A stretch of 24,038 bases of DNA from a virus. The notes under the pieces are model-generated. The model was not told where the DNA came from and searched no databases. It saw only the letters and a program-made list of their open reading frames with translations. A program made the position numbers and the translations under genes. This document shows, piece after piece, positions 1,681-17,821 of this stretch (within the stretch, counting starts at the first letter, position 1; the number at the start of each line of letters is the position of its first letter). The DNA lies in IMG/VR virus record IMGVR_UViG_3300047457_001129, positions 1 to 24,038 of that record; one strand, given 5' to 3'.

Positions 1681-2975
1681 TGAGTGACGTAAAACAAATG
1701 ATTGAAGAATTGGTTGCCACTGTTGGCACACCGAAGTATGCTTACAATTGCAAAGAGTTTACTCCTGGCAAAGACACGGTCTTTTATTCTGGTCCATATT
1801 GGGACGAGAAGGAAGTCATTGCTGGCGTCACTGCATTCCTCACAGGTAAGTGGCTTGTCTCTGGCGAAAACGTTGCCAAGTTTCAGTGGGCATTTAGCCG
1901 CAAGTTCAATGTGAAGCATTGCCACATGGTGAACTCTGGTTCATCAGCCAACTTGACTATGGTTGCTGCTCTTAAGAAGCACTTGGGCTGGAAGGATGGC
2001 GATCAAGTTATCGTATCACCCGTTGGATTCCCAACAACGATTGCTCCGTTGGTTCAGAATGGTCTTGCACCAGTCTTTGTTGATATTGAAATGAAGACTT
2101 TGAACTTTGATCTTGATCATGTTGAAAAGTGGATCACCGATAAAACAGTTGCTATTTTCGTGTCGCCTGTTCTTGGTAATCCGCCGCATATGGATCGCAT
2201 CAAAGATATGTGCGAGCGACACGGCATTCGTTTGATTGGCGATAACTGTGATTCATTGGGCACAAAGTGGGATGGTAAGTTACTAACGGATTACTATTAT
2301 GCGTGGACAACTTCTTTCTATCCTGCTCACCACATTTCGACGGGCGAAGGCGGGATGGTTTGCTCAAACGACGAGCAACTCATCAACACTGCTCGCAGCA
2401 TTAGCTGGTGGGGTCGTGATTGCCGTTGCGTTGGTGCTGCTAATCTATTGGCTTGTGGAACGTGTGGTAATCGCTTTGATAAATGGCTTGAAGGATATAA
2501 TGGGATAATTGATCACAAGTATCTCTTCACGAACATGGGGTACAATCTCAAGCCACTTGATATGCAAGGTGCAATTGGTATTGAGCAGTTGAAGAAGATC
2601 GACGAGATTGATGTGAAGCGTCGTGTAAACTTCGCTCGCATCAAGCATCTCTTTGAGAAGTATATCCCTGGTGTTCGTGTTGCTGAGAATCTTCTCTTGG
2701 CTGATCCGTCATGGTTCGGTGTTCCGTTGATCACTGATACACCAGAACTCAAAGAAAAACTCCAAGCGTTCTGCGAAGAAAATAAGATTCAAACTCGCAA
2801 TTACTTCGCTGGAAATATTCTACTGCATCCTGGCTACAAGCATCTTGATGATGCTGCCAAATATCCGAATGCTAACAAGGCATTGAGCAACGTATTCTTC
2901 GTTGGATGCCCACCGCATTACGGTGAAGAAGTGTTTGCCTACTATGAGAGTGTAATGCAAAAATGGGTATGCTAA
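1680..2975 (+). CDS. E1-type PLP/[2Fe-2S] 4-keto-6-deoxy-sugar 3-dehydrase (DdhC/SpnQ-like)
   Basis: This is predicted to remove the C3 hydroxyl of an NDP-4-keto-6-deoxyhexose, working with a flavin/iron-sulfur reductase. It is 431 residues, close to the roughly 437 of RfbH/DdhC. It belongs to the DegT/DnrJ/EryC1 aminotransferase fold, but at the Schiff-base position it has SFYPAHHIS (212-220), with His instead of Lys, the mark of E1 dehydrases. Cys190, Cys248 and Cys250 reproduce the family C-X57-C-X1-C iron-sulfur spacing. The fourth Cys is at 259 (X8 instead of the X7 I recall), with another at 262. E1 of CDP-sugar pathways is the best-known relative, but rmlA and rmlB next door suggest a dTDP substrate, as for SpnQ-type enzymes. 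No E3-like reductase is present in the window. The exact substrate is inferred. Confidence 0.9.
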   Translation: MSDVKQMIEELVATVGTPKYAYNCKEFTPGKDTVFYSGPYWDEKEVIAGVTAFLTGKWLVSGENVAKFQWAFSRKFNVKHCHMVNSGSSANLTMVAALKKHLGWKDGDQVIVSPVGFPTTIAPLVQNGLAPVFVDIEMKTLNFDLDHVEKWITDKTVAIFVSPVLGNPPHMDRIKDMCERHGIRLIGDNCDSLGTKWDGKLLTDYYYAWTTSFYPAHHISTGEGGMVCSNDEQLINTARSISWWGRDCRCVGAANLLACGTCGNRFDKWLEGYNGIIDHKYLFTNMGYNLKPLDMQGAIGIEQLKKIDEIDVKRRVNFARIKHLFEKYIPGVRVAENLLLADPSWFGVPLITDTPELKEKLQAFCEENKIQTRNYFAGNILLHPGYKHLDDAAKYPNANKALSNVFFVGCPPHYGEEVFAYYESVMQKWVC

Positions 2976-3847
2976 ATGTTTTCGGAGGAAATGGATTCGT
3001 CGGATCGCAATTCTGCAATACAACGAAAAATGGGTATATCAAAAATTATCGAGAAAATATCGGAGTATTTTCTCCCGACGTTGTGTATTTTATTAGCACT
3101 GTTGACAATTATAATGTACACGTCGATCCTAATTTGGATATTGACACTAATCTAACGATTTTGATGAGAGTTCTGAACAATTATCGATTCTATATAGAGA
3201 CGAACAAAAAAGATGGATGTTTCAACTTCATCAGTTCTTGGTTTGTCTATGGACAGGACTCGGGTTTCGGAGAGGGTGCACGTGGCATTCCTGAAACAGA
3301 TCCTTGTGATCCAAAGGGATTTTATTCGATAACAAAACGATGCGCTGAGCAGTTGCTTATGTCTTATTGCGAGACATTCAATTTGAATTACCGCATTCTG
3401 AGATTAGCCAATGTCCTTGGTCCGAAAGATAAAAAAGTTTCTGCGAAGAAGAACGCAGTCCAATATCTATTGGGCGAACTCGCTGCAAACAAACGAGTCG
3501 ACCTCTATGATAGTGGTTATTTTTATCGTGACTATATTGATGTTAGGGATTGCGCTCGAGCAATCGATCTGGTGGTCAACAAAGGCGAACTCAACTCAAT
3601 CTACAACATCGGAAACGGAAAGGGAATAATCTTTCGTGATATTATTCGTTATGCTCGAGATGCAATGGACTCTGGCTCTGAGATTCGTACAATCGAGCAG
3701 AAAGAGTTTCACAAAAAGGTTCAGTCATCCCGTTCGTTCTTTATGGATAATACGAAACTCACAGAATTGGGCTATCGTTCAGAGTACACGATCAACGAAA
3801 CGATTGATACGATTATACATGACATTCTGACAAATAAAAATCACTAA
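2963..3847 (+). CDS. NAD-dependent epimerase/dehydratase family (candidate 4-keto-sugar reductase)
   Basis: This is an extended short-chain dehydrogenase of 294 residues. It shows the Rossmann glycine motif GGNGFVG (8-14), the catalytic Ser region ISSWFVYG (90-97), the YSITK Tyr/Lys pair (121-125), and a substrate-domain stretch RDYIDVRDCARAIDL. It follows the E1-type dehydrase and overlaps it by 13 bases, so the likeliest job is reduction of the C4 ketone to finish a 3,6-dideoxyhexose, comparable in place and size to abequose or paratose synthases (RfbJ/RfbS). That function is inference from order and family; a 4-epimerase or dehydratase role cannot be excluded. An ATG two codons downstream (2969) is an alternative start. 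The stop codon overlaps a CTAAATA box, which marks the end of this operon. Confidence 0.85.
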   Translation: MGMLNVFGGNGFVGSQFCNTTKNGYIKNYRENIGVFSPDVVYFISTVDNYNVHVDPNLDIDTNLTILMRVLNNYRFYIETNKKDGCFNFISSWFVYGQDSGFGEGARGIPETDPCDPKGFYSITKRCAEQLLMSYCETFNLNYRILRLANVLGPKDKKVSAKKNAVQYLLGELAANKRVDLYDSGYFYRDYIDVRDCARAIDLVVNKGELNSIYNIGNGKGIIFRDIIRYARDAMDSGSEIRTIEQKEFHKKVQSSRSFFMDNTKLTELGYRSEYTINETIDTIIHDILTNKNH

Positions 3848-3881: not shown

Positions 3882-5024
3882 ATGTTTGGCTTCAAGCAGT
3901 ATATTCCTTTATTAGCAGAACAGAAGAAACCAGTTCGCGGAATCCTGCACCTTCCACATCCTTCTGAAGCCGCTTTCGCCACTCGTAAAGGCGCAGTCGG
4001 TTCCACTCTCTCTAAAATTCAAGGTGTCATTAGCGGTCGCACTCCGATCACTCGTAAGATCGACGATCGCATGTCTTTTCAGGCTATTCGCACGCCAGAA
4101 GGCAAAGTCGGTGTGAAGTATAAAGGCACTGGCGCAACTTATAACTTCTCTGCTGAAGATATAAAGAAACAACACAGCGAAAAGCCATATATCGCTGGAC
4201 CACTCATGAATATTCTCAAGCACGTTCATAAAGTGCTTCCAAAGGGTTCAGGTGAGTATCAGGGTGGGTATCTCAGTTCTCTTGAAGACCGCACCGAAGA
4301 GGATGGCAACATCGGTCACAAACCAAATACTATTCGCTATTCTGTAGATAAGAAATCTGCAGAAGGAAAGAAACTTGCAAAGGCTCCATTGAGCATTGCA
4401 CTTCACTCACGCATTGCTGCTGATGGCAGCACATCTCCAATCGGCGAAGGCGAGTTACAAGAACATCCAGATGTCCATCTGATGAGTCATCTTGTTTCTA
4501 GCGAAGAAAGAAAACTATCTCCAGACGCAAAAAGAAAAGCACTTGAGCATATTGCTGCAGCCAAGAAACTTGGGCAAAAGCATTCTCATGATCACCATGA
4601 AGGTCATGATGAAACTCTATTGCGTTATGCAAACTCAACCATTGATACTGGTGAAAAGCCAAACGCAAAGGGCTATATCAAATTCCTAGAAAAGCACCAT
4701 CAAAAAAGAATAGATTCTGTAAAAACAGAAAAGGCTAAAAACCAAAAAGCAGAAGAAAGAAAAGCCTCGATCAATCATGTAAATGATAACCTAGATAAAT
4801 TCGATAAGACATTTGATATGCATCATCATATTCAACAAGCAACATATGCTGTTGCTGATGCATTATCTAAAACAGCTAGTGGTGGATACTCACATAAGAT
4901 TGACAATGAAGAGGCTGCAGGTGAGGGATTTGTTTCTGGTGGAATGAAGTTTGTTCCAAGAAAGTTCACTGAAGCAAATCGCAAACGTTCAGCAGCACTG
5001 AAAGCGCAAAAGAGCGTAATATGA
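3882..5024 (+). CDS. Conserved phage protein with capsid-targeting-like N-terminus and ligase-like motif I
   Basis: 380 residues. I recognise it as a family common in T4-like aquatic phages with no settled function. The N-terminus MFGFKQYIPLLAE resembles the T4 internal-protein targeting peptide (MKTYQEFIAE type) and ends in L-x-E, the consensus of the T4 prohead protease. Residues 57-100 (TRKIDDRMSFQ, then VKYKGTGATYNFS) look like motif I (KxDGxR) of nucleotidyltransferase/ligase folds, except that the Gly is Asp. GEYQGGYLSS (124-133) could be motif III, and NTIRYSVD with APLSIALHSR may follow it. A His/Asp-rich segment (KHSHDHHEGHDE, 233-244) could bind metal. The C-terminal third is charged and helical. 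GGAGAG at 3873 fixes the start, and the stop overlaps the next ATG (ATGA). It is probably a head-packaged protein; enzymatic activity is speculative. Confidence 0.75.
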   Translation: MFGFKQYIPLLAEQKKPVRGILHLPHPSEAAFATRKGAVGSTLSKIQGVISGRTPITRKIDDRMSFQAIRTPEGKVGVKYKGTGATYNFSAEDIKKQHSEKPYIAGPLMNILKHVHKVLPKGSGEYQGGYLSSLEDRTEEDGNIGHKPNTIRYSVDKKSAEGKKLAKAPLSIALHSRIAADGSTSPIGEGELQEHPDVHLMSHLVSSEERKLSPDAKRKALEHIAAAKKLGQKHSHDHHEGHDETLLRYANSTIDTGEKPNAKGYIKFLEKHHQKRIDSVKTEKAKNQKAEERKASINHVNDNLDKFDKTFDMHHHIQQATYAVADALSKTASGGYSHKIDNEEAAGEGFVSGGMKFVPRKFTEANRKRSAALKAQKSVI

Positions 5025-7756
5025 GTAAAGCAACATTTACCTTTGGAAGATTCAACCCGCCGACAGAAGTGGGTCATGGTAAGTTAGTTGGCGCAGTTCA
5101 AGCACATGCAGAAAAAAGTGGTGGCAAACATTATATTTTCCCATCACACTCTCAAGACGCCAAGAAAAATCCATTGAGTCATAAAGATAAAGTTGGTGCA
5201 ATGAATCGCATGTTTCCAAACGCAAATGTTGTTTCCTCTGGTAAAGTGCGTACAGCAATTGATGCGATGAAACATCTAGAAAAGCAGGGTCATAAAGAAG
5301 TTACAATGGTGGTTGGTTCTGATCGTGTCGACAACTTCCATTCTCTGCTCAATAAATATAGAACTAAAGAATTTCCAGGAATCAAAAAAGTAAACGTTGT
5401 ATCAGCAGGTCATCGAGATCCAGACGCAGAAGGTGCCGAAGGCATGTCTGCTTCTAAACTTCGCGAGTTAGTTGCTGCTGGTAAAAAGAAAGAATTTGTT
5501 TCACACTATAGCGACCCAAAACTCGGCGCTCATATACATGATAAGGTAAAAGCAGGTATGCAAATGGAATCAACAAACCCAGTCGGTATTTTTCTACTTG
5601 GTGGTCCAGGAAGCGGAAAGGATTATCTTCTCAAGAATATCTTTTCTCGTTTCGACCTAACTGAGGTTCAAGCCGATCAAATTCTCAATGGTGCTGCTGC
5701 AGAACTATTTGAATCAAGCAAAAATATCGTCATCAATGGCGCTAATGATGCTGAAAAGATCGAACTAGTACAGAATATGCTCGAAGGCTACACCTTTGAT
5801 TTTGTTCATGTATCTGTTACAAATAAAGTTTCTCGTTTGCGCAATGAACAGCGCGAACAACCAATTACTGAATCAAAGCGTATTGACAAATATCTAAAAG
5901 CTGAGCAATTAGCAAAAGATGTTGAAGCATTTATTTTCAATAACTCAATCAATCTCAACGAATCATCAGAGATGGAAAGATTGTTTTTCGGTTCTCAAAT
6001 CGAAAAACTTCTAGAAAGAGTTGTTGAACTCGGACTTCACATTGAAGAAACTCCAGCACCAAAATCGTTTTCAATTCTTCGCGAAAAGAAGTTTCCTACA
6101 GTTGCAAAAGATAAGGCATCAGGATTACCTAAGAAATATGTTCGTGGATTGAGTGCCTCAACAGCGAAAGCAAGAGCAGCTCATTGGAAAGAAAAATCAA
6201 AGTTATCTGACAGTGATCCGCGTGCATATGAACCAGCTCCTGGCGATGCAACTGCAAAAACGAAACCAAGCAAGCATACTCTTGCTGTTCGTAAGATGAT
6301 GGATGAGGCTGAGCAACAGAAAGTTCGTCGTGTTGCACGGAGCGGAAATGTTACTGCTGTCATGGATGCACGCAAAGATACTGGGCGCGTCAACGAAGGT
6401 GCTTCTGATTCTTCAATTGCAGCAAAAGCAAAGAAGTCTGGTATTTCTGTCGGCACACTCCGAAAAGTTTATAATCGCGGAGTTGCTGCTTGGAACTCTG
6501 GTCATCGCCCAGGAACGACACCACAACAGTGGGGTCATGCTCGTGTCAACTCCTATATCAACAAAGGTAAGACATATCATACAGCAGATAAAGATCTGCG
6601 TGAAGATGTAGAAGATCTAGATGCGCTATTTGAGATGCAATTGGTGGGTACAGACGAATATCGTAAGCATGCCATTGCTATGACACCAGGACAGGGAGAA
6701 GTTGAAAATGCTTACAAATCTAAAAAGAATGCTATTCCAGAAGAAACCGATTGTGGATGCGAAAGCGATTGCGGCTGCGACGATAGCAATCAAAATGAAT
6801 CGACTGGAGGAAGAAGTGAGCGAAGTGTTCCAAAGAGTTTTAGAGACCTCAGAACAGAAGCCAAAAAAGAAAAAGAAGAAGACACTCAAGTAACTGCAGT
6901 GTTTGATCCAAAATTAGGCGACTCTAAAAAGAAAGCATCAAATATCAAAACTCCACCAAGAAATATTGATTCAACAATGCAAGGTCTCCCAGTTGCATCT
7001 CGCTTCAATGCTTATGAAGAAAAGAAGCCAGAAGAAAAAGGTTTCATGCCAACCCCTCATCAGGTTCCTGCTCCTCCTGGCGGTCATTCTATTCCAAAAG
7101 GATATAAGCGAGTCAAAGATCATATCGCTGGTTGGAAACTTGTAAAGGAAGAAGATTCTCCAGAACTTACTCTTGAAGAAGCAGTTCAGTATCACCTCGA
7201 GAATAATATCTCGATCACAGAAAACGTTTTTCGTCCAGCATCTGAAATGTTCTTTGAAATGATCAAAGAAGCCAAGCGTCTTTATAAAGAAGGAAAGTAT
7301 ACTCCTAAAGACGAATGGGAAAAAGACATGCTTCAAACAGATATTGGCGAAATCGCAGAGTTCGAGGGTCAAGCAGTCGTTCTTGATTATCCAATCGAAG
7401 AGGGTCTTGAGGAGTGCTGGACTGGTTACACTCAGAAGGGAATGAAGAAGAAGGGTGACAAGATGGTCCCTAACTGCGTTCCGATGAGTGAAGCAGAAGA
7501 TCCAACTGGTGGTAAGGGTATCGGCAAACCATTCCGCTCAAACGGTGGTGGTGCTGTGTACGTTCGTGTTGGAGACGGTGTTCGCAAGATCAATTTTAGC
7601 CAATCTGGAATGACAAAGAAGTTCAACGATCCTGCAGCAACTCGCAGTTTCGTTGCTCGTCATCACTGCTTGTCTAATAAAGATAAGACGTCAAGATCTT
7701 ATTGGGCTTGTCGTTGGCCACGATTCTTCAGTAATTCAGGAAAAACATGGTGGTAG
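5021..7756 (+). CDS. Multidomain fusion: NMN adenylyltransferase-like + P-loop kinase + several phage modules
   Basis: 911 residues. Residues 1-180 are a nucleotidyltransferase of the NMNAT/cytidylyltransferase type: FGRFNPPTEVGH (8-19) is the HxGH-like motif with one extra residue, MVVGSDR at 96-102, and GMSASKLREL (141-150) is the SxSxxR-like motif. Residues 186-345 are a P-loop kinase-like domain with Walker A GGPGSGKD (194-201). Then come CTS-like PKSFSILRE (347-355), a basic module with KKYVRGLSASTAKARAAHW (371-389), and a module ending RPGTTPQQWGHARVNSYI (496-513). A DCGCESDCGC cluster (577-586) is a possible metal site, followed by CTS-like KSFRDLRTE (605-613). FRPASEMFFEMIKEAKRLY (737-755) opens another module, then ECWTGYTQKGMKKKG (798-812), and the end is a Cys/Trp-rich tail finishing GKTWW. 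The modules recur in aquatic phage proteins as I recall them. The role may be NAD synthesis, head packaging, or both. Confidence 0.85.
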   Translation: MSKATFTFGRFNPPTEVGHGKLVGAVQAHAEKSGGKHYIFPSHSQDAKKNPLSHKDKVGAMNRMFPNANVVSSGKVRTAIDAMKHLEKQGHKEVTMVVGSDRVDNFHSLLNKYRTKEFPGIKKVNVVSAGHRDPDAEGAEGMSASKLRELVAAGKKKEFVSHYSDPKLGAHIHDKVKAGMQMESTNPVGIFLLGGPGSGKDYLLKNIFSRFDLTEVQADQILNGAAAELFESSKNIVINGANDAEKIELVQNMLEGYTFDFVHVSVTNKVSRLRNEQREQPITESKRIDKYLKAEQLAKDVEAFIFNNSINLNESSEMERLFFGSQIEKLLERVVELGLHIEETPAPKSFSILREKKFPTVAKDKASGLPKKYVRGLSASTAKARAAHWKEKSKLSDSDPRAYEPAPGDATAKTKPSKHTLAVRKMMDEAEQQKVRRVARSGNVTAVMDARKDTGRVNEGASDSSIAAKAKKSGISVGTLRKVYNRGVAAWNSGHRPGTTPQQWGHARVNSYINKGKTYHTADKDLREDVEDLDALFEMQLVGTDEYRKHAIAMTPGQGEVENAYKSKKNAIPEETDCGCESDCGCDDSNQNESTGGRSERSVPKSFRDLRTEAKKEKEEDTQVTAVFDPKLGDSKKKASNIKTPPRNIDSTMQGLPVASRFNAYEEKKPEEKGFMPTPHQVPAPPGGHSIPKGYKRVKDHIAGWKLVKEEDSPELTLEEAVQYHLENNISITENVFRPASEMFFEMIKEAKRLYKEGKYTPKDEWEKDMLQTDIGEIAEFEGQAVVLDYPIEEGLEECWTGYTQKGMKKKGDKMVPNCVPMSEAEDPTGGKGIGKPFRSNGGGAVYVRVGDGVRKINFSQSGMTKKFNDPAATRSFVARHHCLSNKDKTSRSYWACRWPRFFSNSGKTWW

Positions 7757-8025: not shown

Positions 8026-9606
8026 ATGGCAGACGTAAAAGTTCCAGCACTCTTGCACAAGATGTCAAAGGCTGCACAAAAGGCTTGGTATAAGAAAAAT
8101 AATATGGCGATGCCTGATGATGCTGGCGGCAGATCTGCTGCAGCAGCAAAACGTGTAAAAGTTGCACCAAGAAAAGAAATTGCTGTCGAACCAAATTCTG
8201 TTCGCGCCATCAATGCTGCAAAACAAAAGGCTTATATGGCAAAGGGCGGTCGTCAACCAATCGGTGCTGCTGGTTCTGGTGGGCATAGTTCTATGGCTGG
8301 ATCAAATATGTCAACGGCAAAGGGTATCGTTGCTGGAATCAAAGCAGGATATAACCCAAAAGTTTCACTAGATCCATATGAGTCAGAGAAAGCAAAGAAA
8401 GTTGGTCCACGATCACTCAAACTCAAAAAAGAATCAGTTGATAAAGAAATGATTGGCGAAGTTAGTCGTATGATGGATAAAGTCATAAAGAAACCTTCCT
8501 CTGTTGATATCGCATCAGATGTCACAAAATTTCTAGAAAGAGGTGGAAAGGTTACTGTATATAAGCCACAAAAAGCCAAATTTAGAGCAGGAACAGCATT
8601 GGCATCAAAACACGATACAACAGTTGCAAAAGCCGCAGGTGGCAAACACGTCATGAGAAATCAGATTGGTAAAAATCTTGGGTTGGCTCGTGCAGGATTA
8701 CTAAACAAAATGCTCACACCAAGTAAAAAAGAAAAATTTGCCACTGAGTCAGTTGAACTCGACGAAGTCACAAAGAAAGAAGCTGAAGCAGTTATCGGCG
8801 GTCCAGTCAAGGAGAAACCAAAAATGCCACCAGGAAAACAGCCAGCAGGATATCGCTACGTTCGTTCACTTGCTCGCAAGGCTATGAAGGGTGGCGTCTC
8901 TGCAATTCATAAATCAATGGAAAAGACCATGCAAAAAGAAGATGTCAATGAGGCAGTCAAAGATGTGGCAGACGTCGGCGAGTATGATTACGAAGGAGAT
9001 ATGGCAAAGTCTCAACTTCGTAGTATCATGGCAAACTCAAAGCGCATGCATGATATGCTCGAAGAAAACACAAACTTACCTGAGTGGGTGCAGAGCAAGA
9101 TTACTCTTGCTGAAGATTACATTTCAACTGCATCAAATTATATGCAAGGTGAAATGAACGAAGAAGTCGAGCAGATTGATGAGAAAATGAATTTGGCAAA
9201 AGCCAAGATGGGTGATGTTGTGAAAGACTTCTATAAATCAAAGGCACCTCAATTCAAAGGAAAAAGCATGGCAAAGCGTCGTGAGATGGCTGTTGCTGCT
9301 AAACTTGGCGCTGAGCGAGAAGCAGGAATGCGCGAAGAAGTCGAGCAGATTGATGAAGTTGGGTCTCCGCTAGGCAATGATTATACTTGGTCGCCACTTA
9401 CTGGAAGCAGACCAAAAAAAGCCCAAGGATTAACACCTTCTAAGAAAGTTAAAGAAAAAGTCGTAACTGAAGCCGAAGGCACTATTGCTGTAACTCCAAA
9501 AGAAAAGGCACTCGCTGCGCATCACGGCGATCCAAAGAAGATCACATACGGTGATGTCATCAAGGCAAGACTCAAATCAGCCGCTGCAAAGAAGATGGGT
9601 AAGTAA
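8026..9606 (+). CDS. Charged modular phage protein with repeated acidic (I/L)xE motifs (candidate internal head protein)
   Basis: 526 residues, Lys/Ala/Glu-rich, with no signal peptide or membrane segment. Three acidic motifs punctuate it: ESVELDE (241-247), EEVEQIDE (379-386) and EEVEQIDE (437-444). Each ends in (I/L)-x-E, the T4 prohead-protease consensus. Between them are compact modules: KLPPGK-like basic stretches; a module with ENTNLPEWVQSKITLAEDY (347-365), which recurs widely in aquatic phage proteins; and MGDVVKDFYKSKAPQFKGK (395-413), also a recurrent phage module. The two EEVEQIDE copies are encoded by an identical 23-base repeat at 9160-9182 and 9334-9356. The start ATG directly follows the cupin stop. 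Function is unknown; the reading as an internal head polyprotein is inference. Confidence 0.75.
   Translation: MADVKVPALLHKMSKAAQKAWYKKNNMAMPDDAGGRSAAAAKRVKVAPRKEIAVEPNSVRAINAAKQKAYMAKGGRQPIGAAGSGGHSSMAGSNMSTAKGIVAGIKAGYNPKVSLDPYESEKAKKVGPRSLKLKKESVDKEMIGEVSRMMDKVIKKPSSVDIASDVTKFLERGGKVTVYKPQKAKFRAGTALASKHDTTVAKAAGGKHVMRNQIGKNLGLARAGLLNKMLTPSKKEKFATESVELDEVTKKEAEAVIGGPVKEKPKMPPGKQPAGYRYVRSLARKAMKGGVSAIHKSMEKTMQKEDVNEAVKDVADVGEYDYEGDMAKSQLRSIMANSKRMHDMLEENTNLPEWVQSKITLAEDYISTASNYMQGEMNEEVEQIDEKMNLAKAKMGDVVKDFYKSKAPQFKGKSMAKRREMAVAAKLGAEREAGMREEVEQIDEVGSPLGNDYTWSPLTGSRPKKAQGLTPSKKVKEKVVTEAEGTIAVTPKEKALAAHHGDPKKITYGDVIKARLKSAAAKKMGK
9160..9356 (+). repeat. Two identical 23-base direct repeats encoding EEVEQIDE
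   Basis: Bases 9160-9182 and 9334-9356 are identical and encode the same acidic motif in the 526-residue protein. Diverged copies occur in the next gene (for example around 10469-10491). The exact identity suggests a duplicated linker or a recombination junction between modules. Confidence 0.85.
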
Positions 9607-9607
9607 T

Positions 9608-11059
9608 ATGAAACATGTAGTCGAACTCAAATACACCAATCCTTCTCACGAACATGTTTCTTTGCGACGTCGCGTTGAAACAGTCAATCGTGTTGTTGAG
9701 GCTCAAAGTGCTGACGAAGCCTTGAATCGTGCTGCAAATCAGCAGCGTTCACTTGGATTTCGTATTCAATCTGCAAACATTGTTGAGCAGAAAATTGAAG
9801 AATCAACAAGTGCATTGATTTCAGAAGAAACTGAACTTGAAGAAGGAAAGATTGCAAAAGCACTTGCCGTTGGTGCAATGGCGCTTGCTTCCATGGGCGC
9901 AAAGGCTCACACTGACACAACAAAGTCAGTGGCTCAACTTGCTCAAGAACGCCCAGCACTTGCACAGCGATTGCATGATATTGGTGCGTCAGGTCAAGTT
10001 CCAGCATCAGATAAGCGTGCTGCAGAACTACAGAGAAAGCAGGATCAAGAAATGCCAGCCTCTGAGCGTCGTGCGAAAGAGTTGAAGAAAGAAGAAGTCG
10101 AACTCGAAGAAGGAAAGTATGCCTCAACGATTGCTGCAATTGCTGCTCAAGCATATGAACCAAAAGTTGGTGACAAAGTTCGCACTCGTAAGGGTGGACA
10201 AATCCCAGGAAAAGTCGAGAAGATCGAAAACAACAAAGTATTCTTCCGTCATCCAGAAGGCAAACTCTACGCAACGCATTCTAGCAATTTGATGAGAGAA
10301 GAAGCCGAGCAAGTGGATGAAGGCTCAAAGCGCATGAGTGCAGCCGTCAAATTGCAACGCGCATTTGACAAAGAAAAAACTGCAAGCGATGCCAGCCGTA
10401 AGCGTGGTGAGGAAATGCTGGATCAGGCTCGTGCAGAGTATGCAAAGAAGCAAGCCGCTAAGACAAACGAAGAAGTTGAGCAGGTTGATGAAGCCAACAT
10501 GCGTTTTGATCCAGAGGCTGCTGCTCGTCCAAAGTCATCTGATGTCAAGAACTTTTTGAATCGAGATAAGAATGCTCGTGCTGGTGCTGCTTCTAAAAAG
10601 TATATTCGTCGCATGACAAAACTCGGTGGTCTTGGTCCAAATCAAACTAAAAAAGACACTGAAAAACATATGAAGGATTATTTCGAAGAAGTTGAAATCT
10701 CAGAAGCATCAAAAGAAGGCAAATCTGTAATGTACGGTATGCGCGCTTCAATGAAAGCAATGGATCTGCGCCACGGCGTTGATTCAGACAAGCGTGATTC
10801 TGGCTACAAGATGTCACCTGCTGTTCGTGCTGCTCAAGCCAAGTCTGATGCTCTTTCTAAGGTTGAAAAACCAGTGCAGGCAGGAACTCTTGCTGCTCTA
10901 AAACGAAGAGAGATGAAGAAAGAAGCAGTAGATCCAGGCTCTATGAAGGTGGTAAATAAGAAAGTAAAAGCTGCTGACAAAATGATCAAAGCAGCAAAAG
11001 GTAAAGTGAATAAAATTGATCTAAAACCAACTCTTGATCTAGACAGTTATAAGGATTGA
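9608..11059 (+). CDS. Charged modular phage protein with five acidic cleavage-like motifs (candidate internal head polyprotein)
   Basis: 483 residues from the ATG at 9608, two bases after the previous stop. A longer frame reaches back to 9551, but that part lies inside the upstream gene and is out of character. The N-terminus (MKHVVELKYTNPSHEHVSLR, 1-20) forms a small alpha/beta domain. Motifs EETELEE (73-79), EEVELEE (162-168), EEAEQVDE (231-238), EEVEQVDE (288-295) and EEVEISE (360-366) divide the chain into five or six segments. The segment at 81-100 is a hydrophobic Ala-rich stretch. Residues 183-230 (YEPKVGDKVRTRKGGQIPGK and on) look like a KOW/SH3-like small barrel. The remaining segments are basic and helical. 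No enzyme motif is seen. The pattern suits a set of small proteins joined by protease sites, but that is inference. Confidence 0.75.
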   Translation: MKHVVELKYTNPSHEHVSLRRRVETVNRVVEAQSADEALNRAANQQRSLGFRIQSANIVEQKIEESTSALISEETELEEGKIAKALAVGAMALASMGAKAHTDTTKSVAQLAQERPALAQRLHDIGASGQVPASDKRAAELQRKQDQEMPASERRAKELKKEEVELEEGKYASTIAAIAAQAYEPKVGDKVRTRKGGQIPGKVEKIENNKVFFRHPEGKLYATHSSNLMREEAEQVDEGSKRMSAAVKLQRAFDKEKTASDASRKRGEEMLDQARAEYAKKQAAKTNEEVEQVDEANMRFDPEAAARPKSSDVKNFLNRDKNARAGAASKKYIRRMTKLGGLGPNQTKKDTEKHMKDYFEEVEISEASKEGKSVMYGMRASMKAMDLRHGVDSDKRDSGYKMSPAVRAAQAKSDALSKVEKPVQAGTLAALKRREMKKEAVDPGSMKVVNKKVKAADKMIKAAKGKVNKIDLKPTLDLDSYKD

Positions 11060-11062
11060 TCA

Positions 11063-11521
11063 ATGCTGAAGTTCAAACAATTTATAAACGAAAGTGTTGA
11101 CGATATTATTGATACCGATAGTCGCAGACTCTCAGAAAATATGGAAGCATTCAATGATGAGCTCGATAATCTCACATTGAAGCCATATCAAAATGCTCCT
11201 GTGTTTTTAGCGCAGTTGCGTGGTGTTTGCGAGCGTTATGGAATTCAGATTCCTCAATCAGCAACACCTGAATTCATGAATCTTGGCGCTGAGTTAGTAT
11301 ACTCTCTTGGCACTAGTGGGTTTCATCTTTACATTGTGTACGATACGCATGAAGAAGATGGATTTGTTGATGGTTATGCGCAAGTCGTTTCAAGTGATGA
11401 ATTGCAAGATTTGATGGGCATGTCTGTTGAGGACTTGGCTGGTGAGAGAGAAGCAATGCTTATTCCACCAAATACCTATCGCAAGAGAGATGATGACGCA
11501 GGCAATAGCGACGAATACTAA
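11063..11521 (+). CDS. Conserved phage protein with a close match to the T4 capsid-targeting peptide
   Basis: 152 residues. The first ten, MLKFKQFINE, fit the T4 internal-protein signal (MKTYQEFIAE) in length, in aromatic residues at positions 4 and 7, and in the I-x-E end where T4 gp21 cuts. The rest is an acidic alpha/beta domain (VFLAQLRGVCERYGIQIP, then an HLYIVYD strand) and an acidic tail rich in Asp and Glu. I do not recognise an activity. AAGGA at 11051-11055 provides the RBS. It sits between the motif-rich head proteins and another small conserved protein, consistent with the head module. Cleavage after Glu10 is predicted, not shown. Confidence 0.75.
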   Translation: MLKFKQFINESVDDIIDTDSRRLSENMEAFNDELDNLTLKPYQNAPVFLAQLRGVCERYGIQIPQSATPEFMNLGAELVYSLGTSGFHLYIVYDTHEEDGFVDGYAQVVSSDELQDLMGMSVEDLAGEREAMLIPPNTYRKRDDDAGNSDEY

Positions 11522-11524
11522 TAT

Positions 11525-11914
11525 ATGTTTTTTGATGAATTGAATGAATCGAATATTTTATTATATGCAGCCAAGTGCTATGATAAGCCAAACTGCATTG
11601 ATAGTGAGTTCGATGAAGATTATAAAAAACTTCGTTATATAAAGCGATTACTGCATCGATATAGAATTACAGGAGAGTTGAAAGAAAGACTTATTCTCAA
11701 TCATCTTGTAGTTGCTCAAAATGTTTTTGGTGTTGAGGCTTGCACAAGAATGCTGTTTTTGTGCATTGATTCTAAAGACTATAGCGCATTGAAAACATTT
11801 TTGTTATATACTTCTGCAATGCCACCACTAGTGAAAGGAATTCGAGGTAGAGATATTATTTCTAGTGACATTGAACTAGACAATAGAATTGTAAGTGTTC
11901 TGAGAGATCTTTAG
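11525..11914 (+). CDS. Conserved T4-like phage protein of unknown function
   Basis: 129 residues, starting three bases after the upstream stop. The N-terminus MFFDELNES is a shortened form of the targeting-like signal seen in its neighbours (aromatic residues, then L-N-E). The core reads CYDKPNCIDSEFDEDYKKLRYIKRLL.. in two parts, then GELKERLILNHLVVAQNVFG (residues 51-70) and a helical C-terminus. I recognise this core as a small conserved family in T4-like phages that lies near the structural genes. Its function is not established as far as I know. No signal peptide or membrane segment is present. Base use matches its neighbours. Confidence 0.78.
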   Translation: MFFDELNESNILLYAAKCYDKPNCIDSEFDEDYKKLRYIKRLLHRYRITGELKERLILNHLVVAQNVFGVEACTRMLFLCIDSKDYSALKTFLLYTSAMPPLVKGIRGRDIISSDIELDNRIVSVLRDL

Positions 11915-11964: not shown

Positions 11965-12327
11965 ATGAAAAAGTTCAACGAATTCAACGAATCAATTGCA
12001 ATGAGTGTCGGTAGTGGCGCTGTAGCAGGAATGCCAACAGCAACTCCAGCAGAACAAACTCCAGTTGGTTTAGGTAAAAAGAAAAAGATGCTTCGTCGCA
12101 TCACACCACATGATATGTTTGGTGGAATTCCAGTATTCAAAGTTCGTTCTGAAGACTATCAAAAGGCAGTCTTGGGAAAGAAAAAGTTCAAACACTATAC
12201 ATCCTATGTCTCTGGTTCGTTAGGTGAGGATGTTCGTGATTTCGCCGCGCAAAATCCATCTTCTGGAATAATTGTTCAAGATGAGATCACTGGCGCAATG
12301 TTTTTTCTGAAGCACGGGAAGAAATGA
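11965..12327 (+). CDS. Small phage protein with targeting-like N-terminus
   Basis: 120 residues. MKKFNEFNES at the start again follows the aromatic-aromatic-Glu signal seen in the other head-region proteins. Next is a flexible Ala/Pro/Thr stretch (14-36), then a basic patch GKKKKMLRR (37-45), and a folded part with MFGGIPVFKVRSEDYQKAVLG (51-71). The C-terminal half carries DFAAQNPSSGIIVQDEITG (92-110) and probably forms an alpha/beta domain. I know similar unnamed proteins from aquatic myoviruses, but no function. A 50-base AT-rich gap precedes it with only a weak RBS. It may be the last of the head-packaged set before the lysis genes. Confidence 0.7.
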   Translation: MKKFNEFNESIAMSVGSGAVAGMPTATPAEQTPVGLGKKKKMLRRITPHDMFGGIPVFKVRSEDYQKAVLGKKKFKHYTSYVSGSLGEDVRDFAAQNPSSGIIVQDEITGAMFFLKHGKK

Positions 12328-14168: not shown

Positions 14169-15203
14169 ATGACAACATCACTAACAGATATTCTTGGCAG
14201 TGAGATGCCGCCAGGACCGCAAGGTCCTCAAGGTGCAGTCGGTCCACAAGGTCCGCAAGGTGTGCAAGGCTCTCAGGGTGTTGCTGGTCCACAAGGACCG
14301 CAAGGCGCTCAAGGTAATATCGGTCTCCAAGGACCATCAGGTCCATCTGGACCTCAGGGTCCAACATTCAATCTTACTGTTCAAGAAGTTTATTCTTCCA
14401 ATAACGTTGTTGGAAATACAGTAACTAATGTAAGCCGCATTCAGTTTGACTTAGAATCTGCACTCAATACAATTGATCAGACCTCTGGTACAGTTCGTGT
14501 AACTAGTTCTAATTTCAAATATTGGGAAGTCGACGATGTTCTAAAACTGACCGCAATAGGCTTTGACACGGTCAACTTCAAGTCTGGAAACAACGTTGTA
14601 ATCGAAGCAAATGCGCAAACGATTCCTCAGAGTATTCGTTTTAGCGTTCCAAATGTTGATCTGAAGGTTGCCAAATCAGGTGATACACTTACTGGCAATC
14701 TAAACACGACAAATCTTGTTGCTGTTACTGATAATACCTTCTCGATTGGCGATTCTACTCATCGATATAAGAAAATTCATATCGGAGAAAGCGGTCTTCA
14801 GGTCGGATCAGCCAATATCTATTTCGACGGACATTTACACAGCACGGTGCCGTTTGCATCGAATGTTTCGTATATTGGTCCATCTGTCACCCTAGCAAAT
14901 ACTGTAACGACGACTTCAGACTCTGAGGTTGTTATCGACTCATTCCCTGCCGCTGATTATATTACTGTAAAATATGTTATTCAAGCAAAAAGTGTTGAAG
15001 GAATACACTCCACGGAATTGTTTTGTATGCACGATGGTATAACTGTCCATACCACAGAATATGCTGTTTTGATTACAAACTATACACTCGGAGTGTTCTC
15101 TGTTGTTATTGAAAGCGGGATCTGCAAACTCAAATTCTTCCCTGACAATCCTAACAATAACCTCATCACAATTCGATACTTGAGACAAGCATTGTCGAGC
15201 TAG
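14169..15203 (+). CDS. Collagen-like fibre protein (short)
   Basis: 344 residues. After a short N-terminus comes an uninterrupted Gly-X-Y collagen-like stretch at residues 16-66 (mostly GPQ), expected to form a triple helix. Residues 67-160 are beta-rich with no known motif. [16 protein letters not shown] (near 175-190) is a tail-fibre GDT(L/M)TG motif, followed by a [19 protein letters not shown] repeat that often appears as LGSxxxxWKxLHV in fibres. The last 95 residues ([16 protein letters not shown] onward, with [11 protein letters not shown] and HTTEYAVL) match the C-terminal domain of the 851-residue fibre downstream. AAGGAAG (14161-14167) is a good RBS. It is a virion appendage protein; the exact structure it belongs to is unknown. 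Confidence 0.85.
14211..14366 (+). repeat. Collagen-like Gly-X-Y repeat
   Basis: This encodes about 17 consecutive Gly-X-Y triplets, dominated by GPQ, in the short fibre. It is a 9-base and multiples-of-9 repeat at DNA level with many synonymous changes. Confidence 0.9.
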
Positions 15204-15265: not shown

Positions 15266-17821
15266 ATGGCGACAATGAATAGAACATTTAGCGTTAAAAC
15301 TGGTATTGACGTAGCAAATACCATTGTTGTCGACTCAAACCGACACCTGTCGAATGTTCCTACTGCGAACATCGGAACAGTAAACGCAACTTCTTTCGTT
15401 ACGACCGCTGGATTAGATGTAACTCTCCAAGCCAATACTGCTCGCACTACTGCAAACGACGCCTATGCTCAGGCTAATACCGCTCGAGATACTGCCAACG
15501 ACGCTTACGGTCAGGCGAATACTGCCAGAACGACAGCAAATGACGCTTATGCACAAGCCAATGCTGGATACTCACAAGCCAATTCTGCCTATGGGCAAGC
15601 CAACGCCGCATACGGTCAAGCAAACGCAGCCTATGGCCAAGCGAATGCAGCGTATGGGCAAGCCAATGCTGCCTATAGCCAAGCAAACACCGCAGCCAAT
15701 ACAGTTTCTGTTACTGTTGGTGGTCTAGTTTTACATAATAGAAAGTTACTCATTCAAAATACAAGTTCGATGTCAATCGAACTACTCGATGACGGAGTTA
15801 ACGCAAATCTAGTTTTCCGTAGTAGTGGTGGTGTTGCTTACGATCAAGCCAATGCTGCTTATGGACAAGCAAATACTGCACGTGATACTGCGAATGACGC
15901 ATATGGTCAAGCGAATACTGCTCGTACAACTGGCAATAATGCATATGGTCAAGCAAATGCCGCCTATGCACAAGCAAATACTGCTCGTGACACAGCAAAT
16001 GATGCTTACGGTCAAGCCAATACTGCTCGTACGACTGCAAACGATGCGTATGCTGCTGCAAATACTGCTGGCACTAATGCACTCAATGCATATGGTCAAG
16101 CGAATGCCGCATATGGTCAAGCAAATAATGGATATGCTCAAGCCAATGCAGCCTACGGTCAAGCCAATGCTGCTTATGGTCAAGCGAATGCAGCATACGG
16201 TGAAGCAAATCTAAAACTCAATCTAACTGGTGGTACAGTCTCTGGCGACTTGACTGTCTCTGGTAACTTGTATCTAACAGGTAATGCAACATATGTCAAT
16301 GTTGCAACCTTGAAAGTAAACGATTCTATTATTCAGCTATCAACAAACTCAACTTCTGATGCTGTTGATATTGGTTTCATGGGTCACTACAGCCCAGATG
16401 GCGGAACTACAAACCTACACACTGGATTTATTCGCCACGCTGCTGATGATATTTTCTACTTGATTGATGGTTATGGCGCTGAACCAACGAATAATATTAT
16501 TGACGTTGCTTCTGCAAATCTTGCATGGTTGCGTGCCAATGTCAATGCTGCTCAGTTGTTACTCAACGGTAGTGTCGTTGCAACTCAAGCCAATCTAACT
16601 CTTGCTCATAACCAAGCCAATGCCGCTTATGGTCAGGCTAATGCCGCATATGGACAAGCCAATGACGCTTATGCACAAGCCAATGCTGGTTATGCCCAAG
16701 CGAACACGGCTAGAGATACGGCAAATGGTGCATATGCCCAAGCCAACGGCGCTTACGCTCAAGCGAACGGTGCCTATGCGCAAGCCAATGGTGCCTTTGC
16801 TCAGGCTAATGGCGCTTATGCTCAAGCCAATGGTGCATATTCCCAAGCAAATGGTGCATATGATCAAGCGAATACTGCTGCAAACACGGTTCGTGTTTAT
16901 GCAAACAGCGCTGGTGGTCTATCCAATAAGTTCCTAAACTTTATCAATACCGCAAGTATTCAAGTTAGCGTAATTGATAATGCTGATGGTAATGCAAATA
17001 TTGCATTCATTACGACTGGTGCTGCAGTCGCTGACTCTTATGCTCAAGCGAATGCTGCTTATAATCAAGCCAATGCAGCTTACGGTCAAGCCAACGCTGC
17101 ATACGGACAGGCTAACGCTGCATACGGACAGGCTAACGCTGCGTATGGGCAAGCAAATGCAGCATATAGCCAAGCCAATGCAGCATATAACACTGCAAAT
17201 GTCAAAGTAGAAACAATTGCAACTGGTCTCGGTCTCGCAAATACCGTTTCCACTACCGCAAATGTCAAGACAGTCACGATTACACCAAACATTGCATCTA
17301 CGACAGTAATTGGTGTTACGAAACTTGTTGACTCGATCACCTCAACTGACACCGCAAATGCTGCGACTGCAAACTCAGTCAAGTGGATAAACGATGTCAA
17401 GGTCGCCAAGGCTGGCGATACGATGACTGGCAAGTTGACGATCAACACCGCAGGTGAAGGTCTTGAAGTCGCGAATGCAAATGTAACGAATACACTAACA
17501 GTTGAGTCATTGAAGGTTACAACTAATACTGTAACAACTGCGGCTTCTGGTCAAGTTATTCTAGATATTTTTCCAACAACAGATCTTGCTTCTGCAAAAT
17601 ACTTTGTACAAGCAAATAGCGGTTCAACATATCATACTACTGAAATTATCCTCGTCCATGAAGGCACAAATATTTGGATGACCGAATATGGTTCTATTCA
17701 AACTGGCGCTTCATTGGGTACTTTCTCGGCTGACATTGATAGCGGAAATGTAAGATTGTTGTTCAATGCTACACAATCAATCAATACAATTCGTGCTGTA
17801 CGTTATGGCATAGTCCCATAA
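15266..17821 (+). CDS. Heptapeptide-repeat fibre protein (AYGQANA repeats)
   Basis: 851 residues. The N-terminus ([18 protein letters not shown], 7-24) is shared with the 1267-residue fibre and probably anchors both to a common partner. Four blocks of a seven-residue repeat, consensus A-Y-G-Q-A-N-A with TARDTAND variants, occupy residues 56-146, 191-315, 449-543 and 590-645. Ala/Tyr spacing of seven suggests an alpha-helical trimeric coiled coil. The blocks are separated by beta-modules, including SGDLTVSGNLYLTGNATYVN (326-345) with a DSIIQLST-type stretch, and KFLNFINTASIQVSV (555-569). GDTMTGKL (718-725) precedes a C-terminal domain (755-851) shared with the preceding fibre. The RBS is AGGAGA at 15254-15259. 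It is a long tail or head fibre; the location is not determinable. Confidence 0.85.
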   Translation: MATMNRTFSVKTGIDVANTIVVDSNRHLSNVPTANIGTVNATSFVTTAGLDVTLQANTARTTANDAYAQANTARDTANDAYGQANTARTTANDAYAQANAGYSQANSAYGQANAAYGQANAAYGQANAAYGQANAAYSQANTAANTVSVTVGGLVLHNRKLLIQNTSSMSIELLDDGVNANLVFRSSGGVAYDQANAAYGQANTARDTANDAYGQANTARTTGNNAYGQANAAYAQANTARDTANDAYGQANTARTTANDAYAAANTAGTNALNAYGQANAAYGQANNGYAQANAAYGQANAAYGQANAAYGEANLKLNLTGGTVSGDLTVSGNLYLTGNATYVNVATLKVNDSIIQLSTNSTSDAVDIGFMGHYSPDGGTTNLHTGFIRHAADDIFYLIDGYGAEPTNNIIDVASANLAWLRANVNAAQLLLNGSVVATQANLTLAHNQANAAYGQANAAYGQANDAYAQANAGYAQANTARDTANGAYAQANGAYAQANGAYAQANGAFAQANGAYAQANGAYSQANGAYDQANTAANTVRVYANSAGGLSNKFLNFINTASIQVSVIDNADGNANIAFITTGAAVADSYAQANAAYNQANAAYGQANAAYGQANAAYGQANAAYGQANAAYSQANAAYNTANVKVETIATGLGLANTVSTTANVKTVTITPNIASTTVIGVTKLVDSITSTDTANAATANSVKWINDVKVAKAGDTMTGKLTINTAGEGLEVANANVTNTLTVESLKVTTNTVTTAASGQVILDIFPTTDLASAKYFVQANSGSTYHTTEIILVHEGTNIWMTEYGSIQTGASLGTFSADIDSGNVRLLFNATQSINTIRAVRYGIVP
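15431..15703 (+). repeat. Heptapeptide repeat block 1
   Basis: About 13 copies of a 21-base unit encoding AYGQANA/TARDTAND-type heptads (residues 56-146), with heavy synonymous variation between copies. Confidence 0.88.
15836..16210 (+). repeat. Heptapeptide repeat block 2
   Basis: About 18 copies of the 21-base unit (residues 191-315). This is the longest block, mixing AYGQANA with TARDTAND and TARTTAND forms. Confidence 0.88.
16610..16894 (+). repeat. Heptapeptide repeat block 3
   Basis: About 13-14 copies (residues 449-543). This block is distinguished by Gly in the last position (AYAQANG), which suggests a local expansion of one variant. Confidence 0.88.
17033..17200 (+). repeat. Heptapeptide repeat block 4
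   Basis: Eight copies (residues 590-645). The units at 17099-17119 and 17120-17140 are identical at DNA level, so at least one duplication is recent. Confidence 0.88.

Follow-up and report, generated by a model that had tools for sequence, protein, structure and literature searches.

Two adjacent genes of the window, the whole 24,038-nucleotide stretch of viral DNA analysed here (IMG/VR record IMGVR_UViG_3300047457_001129), probably encode cargo polyproteins of the capsid interior, made by a T4-like aquatic phage and cut by the prohead protease, the cleavage itself being inferred. Both are modular and lie on the + strand. Protein A (8026..9606, 526 aa) contains three strict motifs, ESVELDE (motif 1, 8746..8766) and two copies of EEVEQIDE (motif 2, 9160..9183; motif 3, 9334..9357), and protein B (9608..11059, 483 aa) contains five, EETELEE (motif 4, 9824..9844), EEVELEE (motif 5, 10091..10111), EEAEQVDE (motif 6, 10298..10321), EEVEQVDE (motif 7, 10469..10492) and EEVEISE (motif 8, 10685..10705), all on the + strand. 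An earlier note had read these eight acidic motifs in two adjacent proteins as protease sites in internal head polyproteins. Its description was accurate in position for all eight, and its reading is supported, without cleavage data. All eight motifs end in [ILV]-x-E and six in [IL]-x-E, the cleavage rule of T4 gp21, the remaining two being V-x-E. The eight sites fall in 2 of the 21 called proteins of the window, against 0.05 sites expected from within-protein shuffles. Neither A nor B matched Pfam or PHROG at E ≤ 0.01, and thus no catalytic or peptidase domain was recognisable; a tblastn search of isolates with protein B gave no match at E 1e-5.

Between motifs 1 and 2 (8767..9159, +) lie a VTKKEAEAVIGGPVKEKP..RYVRSLARKAM cassette, the sequence KEDVNE and a EYDYEGDMAKSQLRSI..TLAEDYI cassette. 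KEDVNE (8935-8952, +), spotted by eye, is inferred to be a possible degenerate site, as is KVVTE (9457-9471, +), which precedes the conserved cassette at the end of the C-terminal segment of A (9358..9603, +); residues ~484 to 526 of A recur in several relatives. The cassette KMNLAKAKMGDVVKDFYKSKAPQFKG.. (9184..9333, +), between motifs 2 and 3, comes first among the cassettes of a 152-aa protein in the relative G011, where it stands behind MKTYKQLQE, and the gene for this protein is two upstream of gp21. In protein B, the motif-bounded cassette B2 (9845..10090, +, 82 aa) belongs to cluster c3 (five proteins, 82-85 aa) and is 88-95% identical among proteins that otherwise differ, while B4 (10322..10468, +, 49 aa) belongs to cluster c4 (five proteins, 48-49 aa) and B5 (10493..10684, +, 64 aa) to cluster c5 (64 aa in 5/5 proteins).

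The recurrence of such modules in other aquatic phages, which the earlier note had put forward, was confirmed: at least 78 related IMG/VR loci were found (236 candidates passed), and there were matches in 12 cyanophage records. One isolate with linkers is P-TIM68, in a protein of 1006 aa. As EEVEQIDE was one of the six seed peptides of the IMG/VR locus search, this set is motif-enriched by construction. Among the 91 sources are seven contigs as well as loci taken out of these contigs, with redundancy removed at the protein level, and absolute motif frequencies are inflated because the query contained the motif and the contigs overlap their own loci. This selection bias bears less on where the sites lie in the seven long contigs. 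In this enriched set, 232 motif sites were counted in 100 of 2188 non-redundant proteins, compared to a mean of 3.5 and a maximum of 6 in 30 shuffles. The prefix EE[VAT]E continues as x?[ILV]xE in 210 of 285 cases, versus 273 of 5737 (4.8%) when the remaining xxxE of these proteins are counted. A chance origin in acidic, low-complexity protein was ruled out by the shuffles together with this prefix control.

The linker consensus is K-E-E-V-E-Q-[I/L/V]-[D/E]-E, and the conservation of KEEVEQ upstream of P3 exceeds what the T4 rule needs. P3 is I, L or V at 232/232 sites, as imposed by the search pattern, and V at 26% of them, beyond the I/L rule. Immediately after the invariant P1, itself fixed by the pattern, P1' is diverse, being L, V, K or I at about 48% of sites, unlike the few T4 sites viewed, which have A. 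The motifs do not fit the A-X-E rule of SPN3US at P3-P1, and the combination of A at P3 and E at P1 was seen twice among the 285 unconditioned EE[VAT]E prefixes. Inside segments, [IL]xE occurred 86 times, compared to 80.9 after shuffling. The depletion expected if cassettes must survive was therefore not found, and either folds protect these sites or the fragments are cut further.

That the motif lies at module borders was also borne out, with 22.3% of internal BLAST alignment ends falling in the motif or no more than 3 aa away, against 6.4% for a shifted-position null (maximum 9.1% of 300). The alignments are not independent, and this null corrects for it only in part. A masking artefact was excluded by an unmasked run and by six decoy-mask runs (4.9-7.4% at decoys). 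By sequence comparison, exchangeable cassettes are bounded by the linker, with 88-95% identical ones standing between different neighbours. Cassettes are typically 50-120 aa long, down to 42 aa; 100 of 326 segments fall into end-to-end groups of three or more, and 226 remain outside. AlphaFold2 models were poor for both A (mean pLDDT 50, pTM 0.17, the three motifs in 10-residue blocks of pLDDT 32-49) and B (mean pLDDT 56, pTM 0.20, motif blocks of pLDDT 39-69), and linker disorder is undecided for this reason. These low-confidence models place 7/8 motifs in helices, in full or in part, a picture that lends no support to free linkers.

In 6 of 25 subjects, a cassette that follows the linker elsewhere follows a T4-type N-terminal capsid-targeting sequence (CTS) ending in [I/L/F]-x-E, and homology begins directly after the E in five of the six, L069:7762 being off by one. 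Writing the junction as a slash, we observed MKTYKQLQE/RINMAKAKMGDV against EEVEQVEE/KMDMAKAKMGDV, MIGFKEFITE/RGEDSKGHF against EEIEDIME/RGEDSKGHY and MIKFNEYTVLEE/GRPSQRHPL against EEVELSE/GRPSQRHPL, with three more pairs among the 25 rows. The six rows come from L069 (twice), L057, G011, L079 (the G016 protein) and L073, of which L079 and L073 are mutually related. Among the other rows, two are shifted by 1-2 residues (L051, L075), two are unclear (L061, L078:918), nine start at Met without a CTS and six are uninformative (contig edge, internal start or other family). The GLYANIHAKRKRI cassette stands behind [IL]xE in 3/3 proteins of the contig set; in small-phage loci it begins a few residues after Met in 7/8, and the eighth has no pattern match. 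In T4, the corresponding cuts are MKTYQEFIAE/A for IPII and IPIII and ..STITE/A for IPI.

A similar equivalence was observed between CTS ends and the gp23 junction in two of the seven contigs. MKSFKEFIKE/DAPANAMGAAGIS resembles gp23 LWE/AAPANAMGSAGIS (E=6e-11), and the likeness is weaker in G007 (E=1e-4); none was found in the other five. The window itself encodes a small protein, MKKFNEFNE/S.. (11965..12327, +), whose start was set by eye and which lies outside the CTS pattern used; in its homologues in G005 and G007, a CTS leads into what is almost a copy of the N-arm of mature gp23. The rule of the phages' own protease is seen in gp23, where L-x-E occupies the T4 E65 column in 9/9 rows, T4 included. 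Against phages, a 400-base stretch of gp23 gave no megablast match.

We then considered the protease and the genomic setting. Co-occurrence with a gp21-like protease, which the earlier note had proposed as a check, was observed: S77 is encoded by 8 of 22 long relatives (22 of the 78 loci were tested), and these eight are all the long relatives with gp23 away from a contig end. No head genes are present on the window contig, a 24 kb fragment, and gp21 of the window phage is only inferred for that reason. In G005, an S77-encoding relative, the cluster matches the window genes at 48-80% identity with the order kept. Seven long S77 relatives were analysed as whole contigs, the eighth, G013, being left out. 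Their 45 sites comprise 33 in the syntenic cluster, 8 in genes of the gp20-gp23 region (two of them overlapping) and 4 elsewhere. A motif spread over other phage proteins, which would have spoken against the earlier note, was not seen, since the 4 of 45 sites outside cluster and head region come close to the 2.35 expected by shuffling across the full proteomes of the seven contigs. The linker is also present in proteins at the gp67, gp68 and gp22 positions of relatives; the gp67-position protein of G007, which resembles T4 gp67 by gene order and MAFFT alignment only, has EEAEQIDE and EEVEQVDE around a cassette.

In the window, A and B are flanked by genes for CTS-like N-termini, the DUF6267 protein (3882..5024, +; MFGFKQYIPLLAE/Q) and the MLKFKQFINE/S protein (11063..11521, +). 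The window also encodes a 911-aa multi-module protein with cytidylyltransferase, kinase-like and DUF5824 parts (5021..7756, +) and a DUF7207/phrog_407 protein (11525..11914, +), a synteny marker of the cluster. A and B are absent from the set of CTS-like N-termini, and their targeting is unexplained as a consequence. Cytidylyltransferases of the class in the 911-aa protein have been detected in cyanophage virions. In S-CREM2 virions, gp160, which carries EETEISE, was detected by mass spectrometry with 7 unique peptides and gp154 (MKNFSSFLTE/A) with 3 (PMC10665884 Table 3), although the authors noted that separation from virions may have been incomplete (PMC10665884). Besides EETEISE, gp160 carries EENLEE as a further predicted cut site, and S-CREM2 has an S77 protease, gp143. 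Two further virion-detected proteins, S-CREM2 gp155 and gp156, have no relative in the analysed protein set.

In the mechanism that we propose, small cassettes strung together through the acidic linker would enter the prohead core as a chain, where the gp21-type (S77) prohead protease of the phage would cut after the last E of [I/L/V]-x-E. About ten cassettes would be freed, four from A and six from B, to stay with the DNA or exit the head, and some would probably be ejected into the host in the manner of internal proteins; the cut, the fate of the fragments and their ejection are all inferences. Many aquatic relatives of T4 appear to make chains of this type. A and B would resemble T4 IPI-IPIII as proposed head-internal cargo, the IP N-terminal propeptide also ending in [I/L]-x-E at the cut, but each T4 IP is a single protein whose one site is N-terminal, whereas A and B are many concatenated cassettes with a repeated internal site and no CTS. 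Several [I/L]xE sites per head protein are likewise a feature of T4 gp22 and gp67, which are cut in T4, while A and B offer motifs only; unlike A and B, the T4 core proteins serve as scaffolds that are largely removed once they have been cut, and they have neither a repeated linker nor cassettes that can be exchanged. According to a T4 review, gp21 cuts gp22 and gp67 into multiple fragments; on gp68 the review disagrees with itself, a third core protein being named as cut in the text but gp68 being listed as uncut in the table (PMC9026906). For phiKZ and SPN3US, the accessible portion of the source states that the prohead proteases gp175 and gp245 cut head and ejection proteins after x-x-E, and that substrates have long propeptides with several cuts, in which they resemble the processing proposed here; the SPN3US rule there is A-X-E, cuts mainly remove propeptides and, in that portion, concatenated cassettes like those of A and B are not described (PMC10052503). 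The papers searched gave no description of such a phage polyprotein with a repeated linker.

The sequence data leave room for other explanations. The linker could serve mainly as a recombination joint, in that cassettes are swapped by homologous recombination through a conserved short stretch of DNA while the protein stays whole. Its codons are indeed conserved above background, with an identical-codon fraction for EEVEQIDE of 0.72-0.78 versus 0.57 expected, CAG at 84/121 Q codons in the motif versus 11/31 in the same context outside, and GTC at 86/173 V codons versus 8/31 outside, and the 88-95% identical cassettes between different neighbours fit such a joint. At I, D and the last E, these codon differences shrink or disappear. 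We consider this explanation on its own unlikely, because these cassettes also stand behind CTS ends whose only common feature with the motif is [ILF]xE, an outcome not expected from a DNA joint by itself, the variants EEVELDE, EEVEQVDE and EEVEISE preserve P3 and P1 despite varying DNA, and one octapeptide is written in 23 distinct DNA forms among 52 copies; joint and cleavage could nevertheless coexist.

An uncut linker that acts inside the chain as a signal for targeting to, or binding of, the scaffold core would suit the conservation of KEEVEQ upstream of P3, the lack of an N-terminal CTS in A and B and the helices modelled at most motifs. It is nonetheless improbable in our view, given that P1' is diverse right behind the pattern-fixed P1, that [I/L/F]xE before the junction is the feature common to linker, CTS ends and gp23 junctions, and that nothing requires a binding motif to be placed where cassettes meet. 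Finally, A and B might be polyvalent proteins injected whole. In the part of Iyer et al. 2017 available, these have 2-15 domains per chain, are predicted to enter with the DNA and are processed in some cases, and a polyprotein analogy is drawn (PMC5512222). The multi-module build of A and B, the detection of relatives in virions and the neighbouring multi-domain enzyme of 911 aa would agree with this. It is very doubtful all the same, as polyvalent proteins have embedded peptidase and enzyme domains in the same partial source (PMC5512222) and A and B show neither, their linker fits a protease rule and cassettes go down to 42 aa.

The preferred reading, cargo polyproteins cut by the prohead protease, can be extended tentatively, without our leaning towards the extension: a linker conserved in both DNA and protein may be recombination joint and protease site at once, such that any cassette placed between two linkers would be packed, cut free and carried to the next host as in a plug-in cargo system, and it may have entered the core genes at the gp67 and gp22 positions. 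If the cargo reading is true, unannotated shuffling proteins of aquatic T4-like phages would be explained as head cargo, and a sequence rule, testable on existing virion mass-spectrometry data, would predict which proteins are head cargo and where their mature ends lie. The strategies of tailed phages would come to include a true capsid polyprotein, by which many small cargo proteins could be packed and swapped at once. Many cassettes would then be candidate early host take-over or counter-defence factors, of which T4 IPI is an example.

The eight acidic motifs that an earlier note had described between 8746 and 10705 were all found where it had placed them, in the adjoining ORFs A (8026-9606, plus strand, 526 aa) and B (9608-11059, plus strand, 483 aa). 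Six of the eight fit [IL]-x-E and the remaining two carry V at P3. Neither protein matched Pfam or PHROGs at E<=0.01. The recurrence of modules in aquatic phages was borne out for A, parts of which were placed by tblastn in 12 phage records, all from Synechococcus or Prochlorococcus phages; for B, no phage record was matched by tblastn. Using A as the IMG/VR query, the best 78 of 236 loci were retained. Among 2188 non-redundant proteins (91 sources), 232 sites were detected in 100 proteins, with up to eight per protein in the motif-rich proteins of related loci, compared to a mean of 3.5 sites (maximum 6, 30 runs) after shuffling within proteins. This count is inflated, as EEVEQIDE was among the seeds for the locus set. 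A test based on EE[VAT]E prefixes alone is less biased: 210/285 of these run on as x?[ILV]xE, versus 273/5737 for other xxxE in the same proteins.

The proposal that the motif lies at domain borders was supported by blastp comparison of the 100 motif proteins with the 2188: 22.3% of internal alignment ends fell in the motif or at most 3 aa away, compared to 6.4% (maximum 9.1% of 300) when motif positions were shifted along the same proteins, and six decoy-mask runs gave 4.9-7.4%. In motif-masked runs, 584 of 2935 internal alignments started 0-4 residues past the last E. Segments bounded by two motifs (n=131) had a median length of 69 aa (interquartile 50-120, range 42-734), and 100 of 326 segments grouped end to end, giving 22 groups of at least three. 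Several groups are nearly constant in length, including those of the B cassettes B2 (82-85 aa), B4 (48-49 aa) and B5 (64 aa), each with neighbours that differ from protein to protein; B2 retains 88-95% identity across otherwise dissimilar proteins.

Head genes are absent from the window, a 24,038-base complete record but a fragment of the virus genome. In the 22 longer contigs tested, from the 78 loci, an S77 protease (gp21) scored above the Pfam cut-off in 8, the association of motif and gp21-like protease that had been anticipated, and gp23 was matched in 10, two of these at contig ends. Seven of the 8 S77 contigs (96-197 kb) were read whole. Their 45 strict sites, including two overlapping, compare to 2.35 expected from shuffling the seven proteomes combined; 33 fall in a cluster syntenic with the window (markers DUF6267, cytidylyltransferase and DUF7207), 8 in gp20-gp23 head-region genes and 4 elsewhere, none of the last being of the EEVEQ[IV]DE type.

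The head-region carriers, named by position in the T4 gene order (20-67-68-21-22-23), are the gp67- and gp22-position proteins of contig G007, the gp68-position protein of G008 and a 751-aa protein of G016 between the gp67 position and gp21. In the gp67-position protein (G007:176974-177525), EEAEQIDE and EEVEQVDE flank a cassette preceded by an acidic stretch resembling that of T4 gp67, a likeness based on gene order and MAFFT alignment; BLAST joins it to gp67-position proteins of two further loci (E about 1e-5). A linker-bounded stretch of the G008 protein recurs (36% identity, E 7e-6) in a 1431-aa eight-motif protein of locus L068. The gp22-position protein of G015 has about 54 residues more than that of G014, with ..EDQLDE and ..YSMIDE near the ends (by eye). 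In five of the seven contigs, the gene directly upstream of gp21 codes for a protein of 121-129 aa whose role is unknown and which looks beta-like by eye (G008:135042-135416, L125; G011:68332-68721, L130; G014:16476-16844, L151; G015:47917-48282, L138; G016:27327-27710, L145).

T4 gp23 is cut at E65, and this column reads L-x-E in 9/9 aligned gp23 rows (T4, Sf-CH8 and the seven contigs). PMC9026906 gives the gp21 rule as L/I-X-E. In 6 of 25 listed subjects, a cassette that follows the linker in one protein stands behind an N-terminus resembling the capsid targeting sequence (CTS) in another, and homology begins right after E on both sides in five, with a one-residue offset in the sixth; for example, MKTYKQLQE/RINMAKAKMGDV of G011, two genes upstream of gp21, pairs with EEVEQVEE/KMDMAKAKMGDV (slash, presumed cut). 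Of the remaining subjects, nine begin at Met with no CTS, and 10 show a shifted start, are unclear or carry no information. T4 IPII and IPIII start with MKTYQEFIAEA, and CTS-like N-termini occur in 96/2188 proteins versus 20.8 after shuffling (maximum 30 of 50). For G005, the sequences are MKSFKEFIKE/DAPANAMGAAGIS.. in the homologue of window gene 11965-12327 and LWE/AAPANAMGSAGIS.. in gp23; the two match at 58% over 38 columns (E=6e-11). The G007 pair matches at 55% over 29 (E=1e-4), and no such match was found in the other five of the seven contigs. Linker, CTS end and gp23 junction coincide in a hydrophobic residue, any residue and E before the bond, the pattern that a protease site would leave.

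Each of the two homologues (G005:156919-157284, L107; G007:37910-38275, L110) opens with a CTS-like sequence, continues with what is nearly a copy of the N-terminal arm of mature gp23 and closes with a basic tail; such proteins perhaps dock on the inner face of the capsid. CTS-like N-termini were also seen on HAD-phosphatase-like proteins with a D[IV]D[DE]TL motif (G005:27420-28037, L101; G007:95943-96542, L113; G011:81510-82115, L131; G016:95816-96589, L148), which because of this N-terminus are possibly packaged enzymes.

Table 3 of the cyanophage S-CREM2 study reports unique peptides from purified virions for gp154 (cytidylyltransferase; 3), gp155 (5), gp156 (6) and gp160 (7), with gp157, gp158 and gp159 not among the rows covered here; its authors caution that such proteins were possibly unseparated from virions (PMC10665884). 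Virions of S-SM1 also yielded a cytidylyltransferase, according to PMC3037559. S-CREM2 gp154 begins MKNFSSFLTE/A, and gp160 contains KKEETEISE/GKKDACYHK (by eye) and shares cassettes with contig-set motif proteins. The adjoining gp159 is homologous to the window DUF7207 protein; for gp155 and gp156 the contig set contains no relative.

The GLYANIHAKRKRI cassette sits 3-4 residues past [IL]xE in 3/3 contig-set proteins, whereas it begins a few residues from Met in 7 of 8 small-phage loci fetched from 98 records matching the G016 protein; the eighth, L163, gave no pattern match for this cassette. Six of the eight are Autographiviridae, and T7-like phages are not known to have a prohead protease. 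In several marine small phages (L162, L164-L169) a cassette of this type (about 50 aa) forms a separate small gene or ORF, and it lies close to scaffold or capsid genes in some of them.

Elsewhere in the window, a 911-aa protein (5021-7756) joins cytidylyltransferase, ATPase/kinase-like, DUF5824 and other small modules, and is possibly another multi-part head cargo protein. A protein rich in long AYGQAN/AYAQAN repeats (15266-17821) and collagen-like GPQGPQGP proteins (14169-15203 and 17932-21735) are probably tail fibre related. Beside the cargo cluster, 3-3847 encodes a dehydratase, nucleotidyltransferase, aminotransferase and epimerase (by eye from translations), probable sugar-nucleotide genes.

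Among the matches listed, no open PMC paper described a head polyprotein of a tailed phage in which a protease linker recurs (subscription papers and preprints were outside the scope), and none named EEVEQIDE, DUF6321, DUF5824, DUF6267 or DUF7207. The closest ideas are those of PMC9026906 on the CTS and the core proteins of T4 that are cut several times, of PMC10052503 on giant-phage ejection proteins that undergo processing, and of PMC5512222 on polyvalent proteins.

The best-supported reading is that A and B are head-core cargo polyproteins, their cleavage, timing and fate being inferred. V at P3, which some linker sites have, falls outside the T4 gp21 rule, and at P1' about 48% of sites have L, V, K or I. 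Depletion of [IL]xE inside cassettes was looked for and not found; structure models of A and B were poor, with most motifs drawn within helices. As head-core cargo, A and B would be cut by gp21 of the same phage after [I/L/V]-x-E, which would free about ten cassettes; both lack a CTS, and core targeting may be achieved via the acidic KEEVEQ part of the linker or via N-terminal domains. At several codons the motif DNA is more conserved than codon bias would explain, so the linker may also serve as a cassette-exchange joint.
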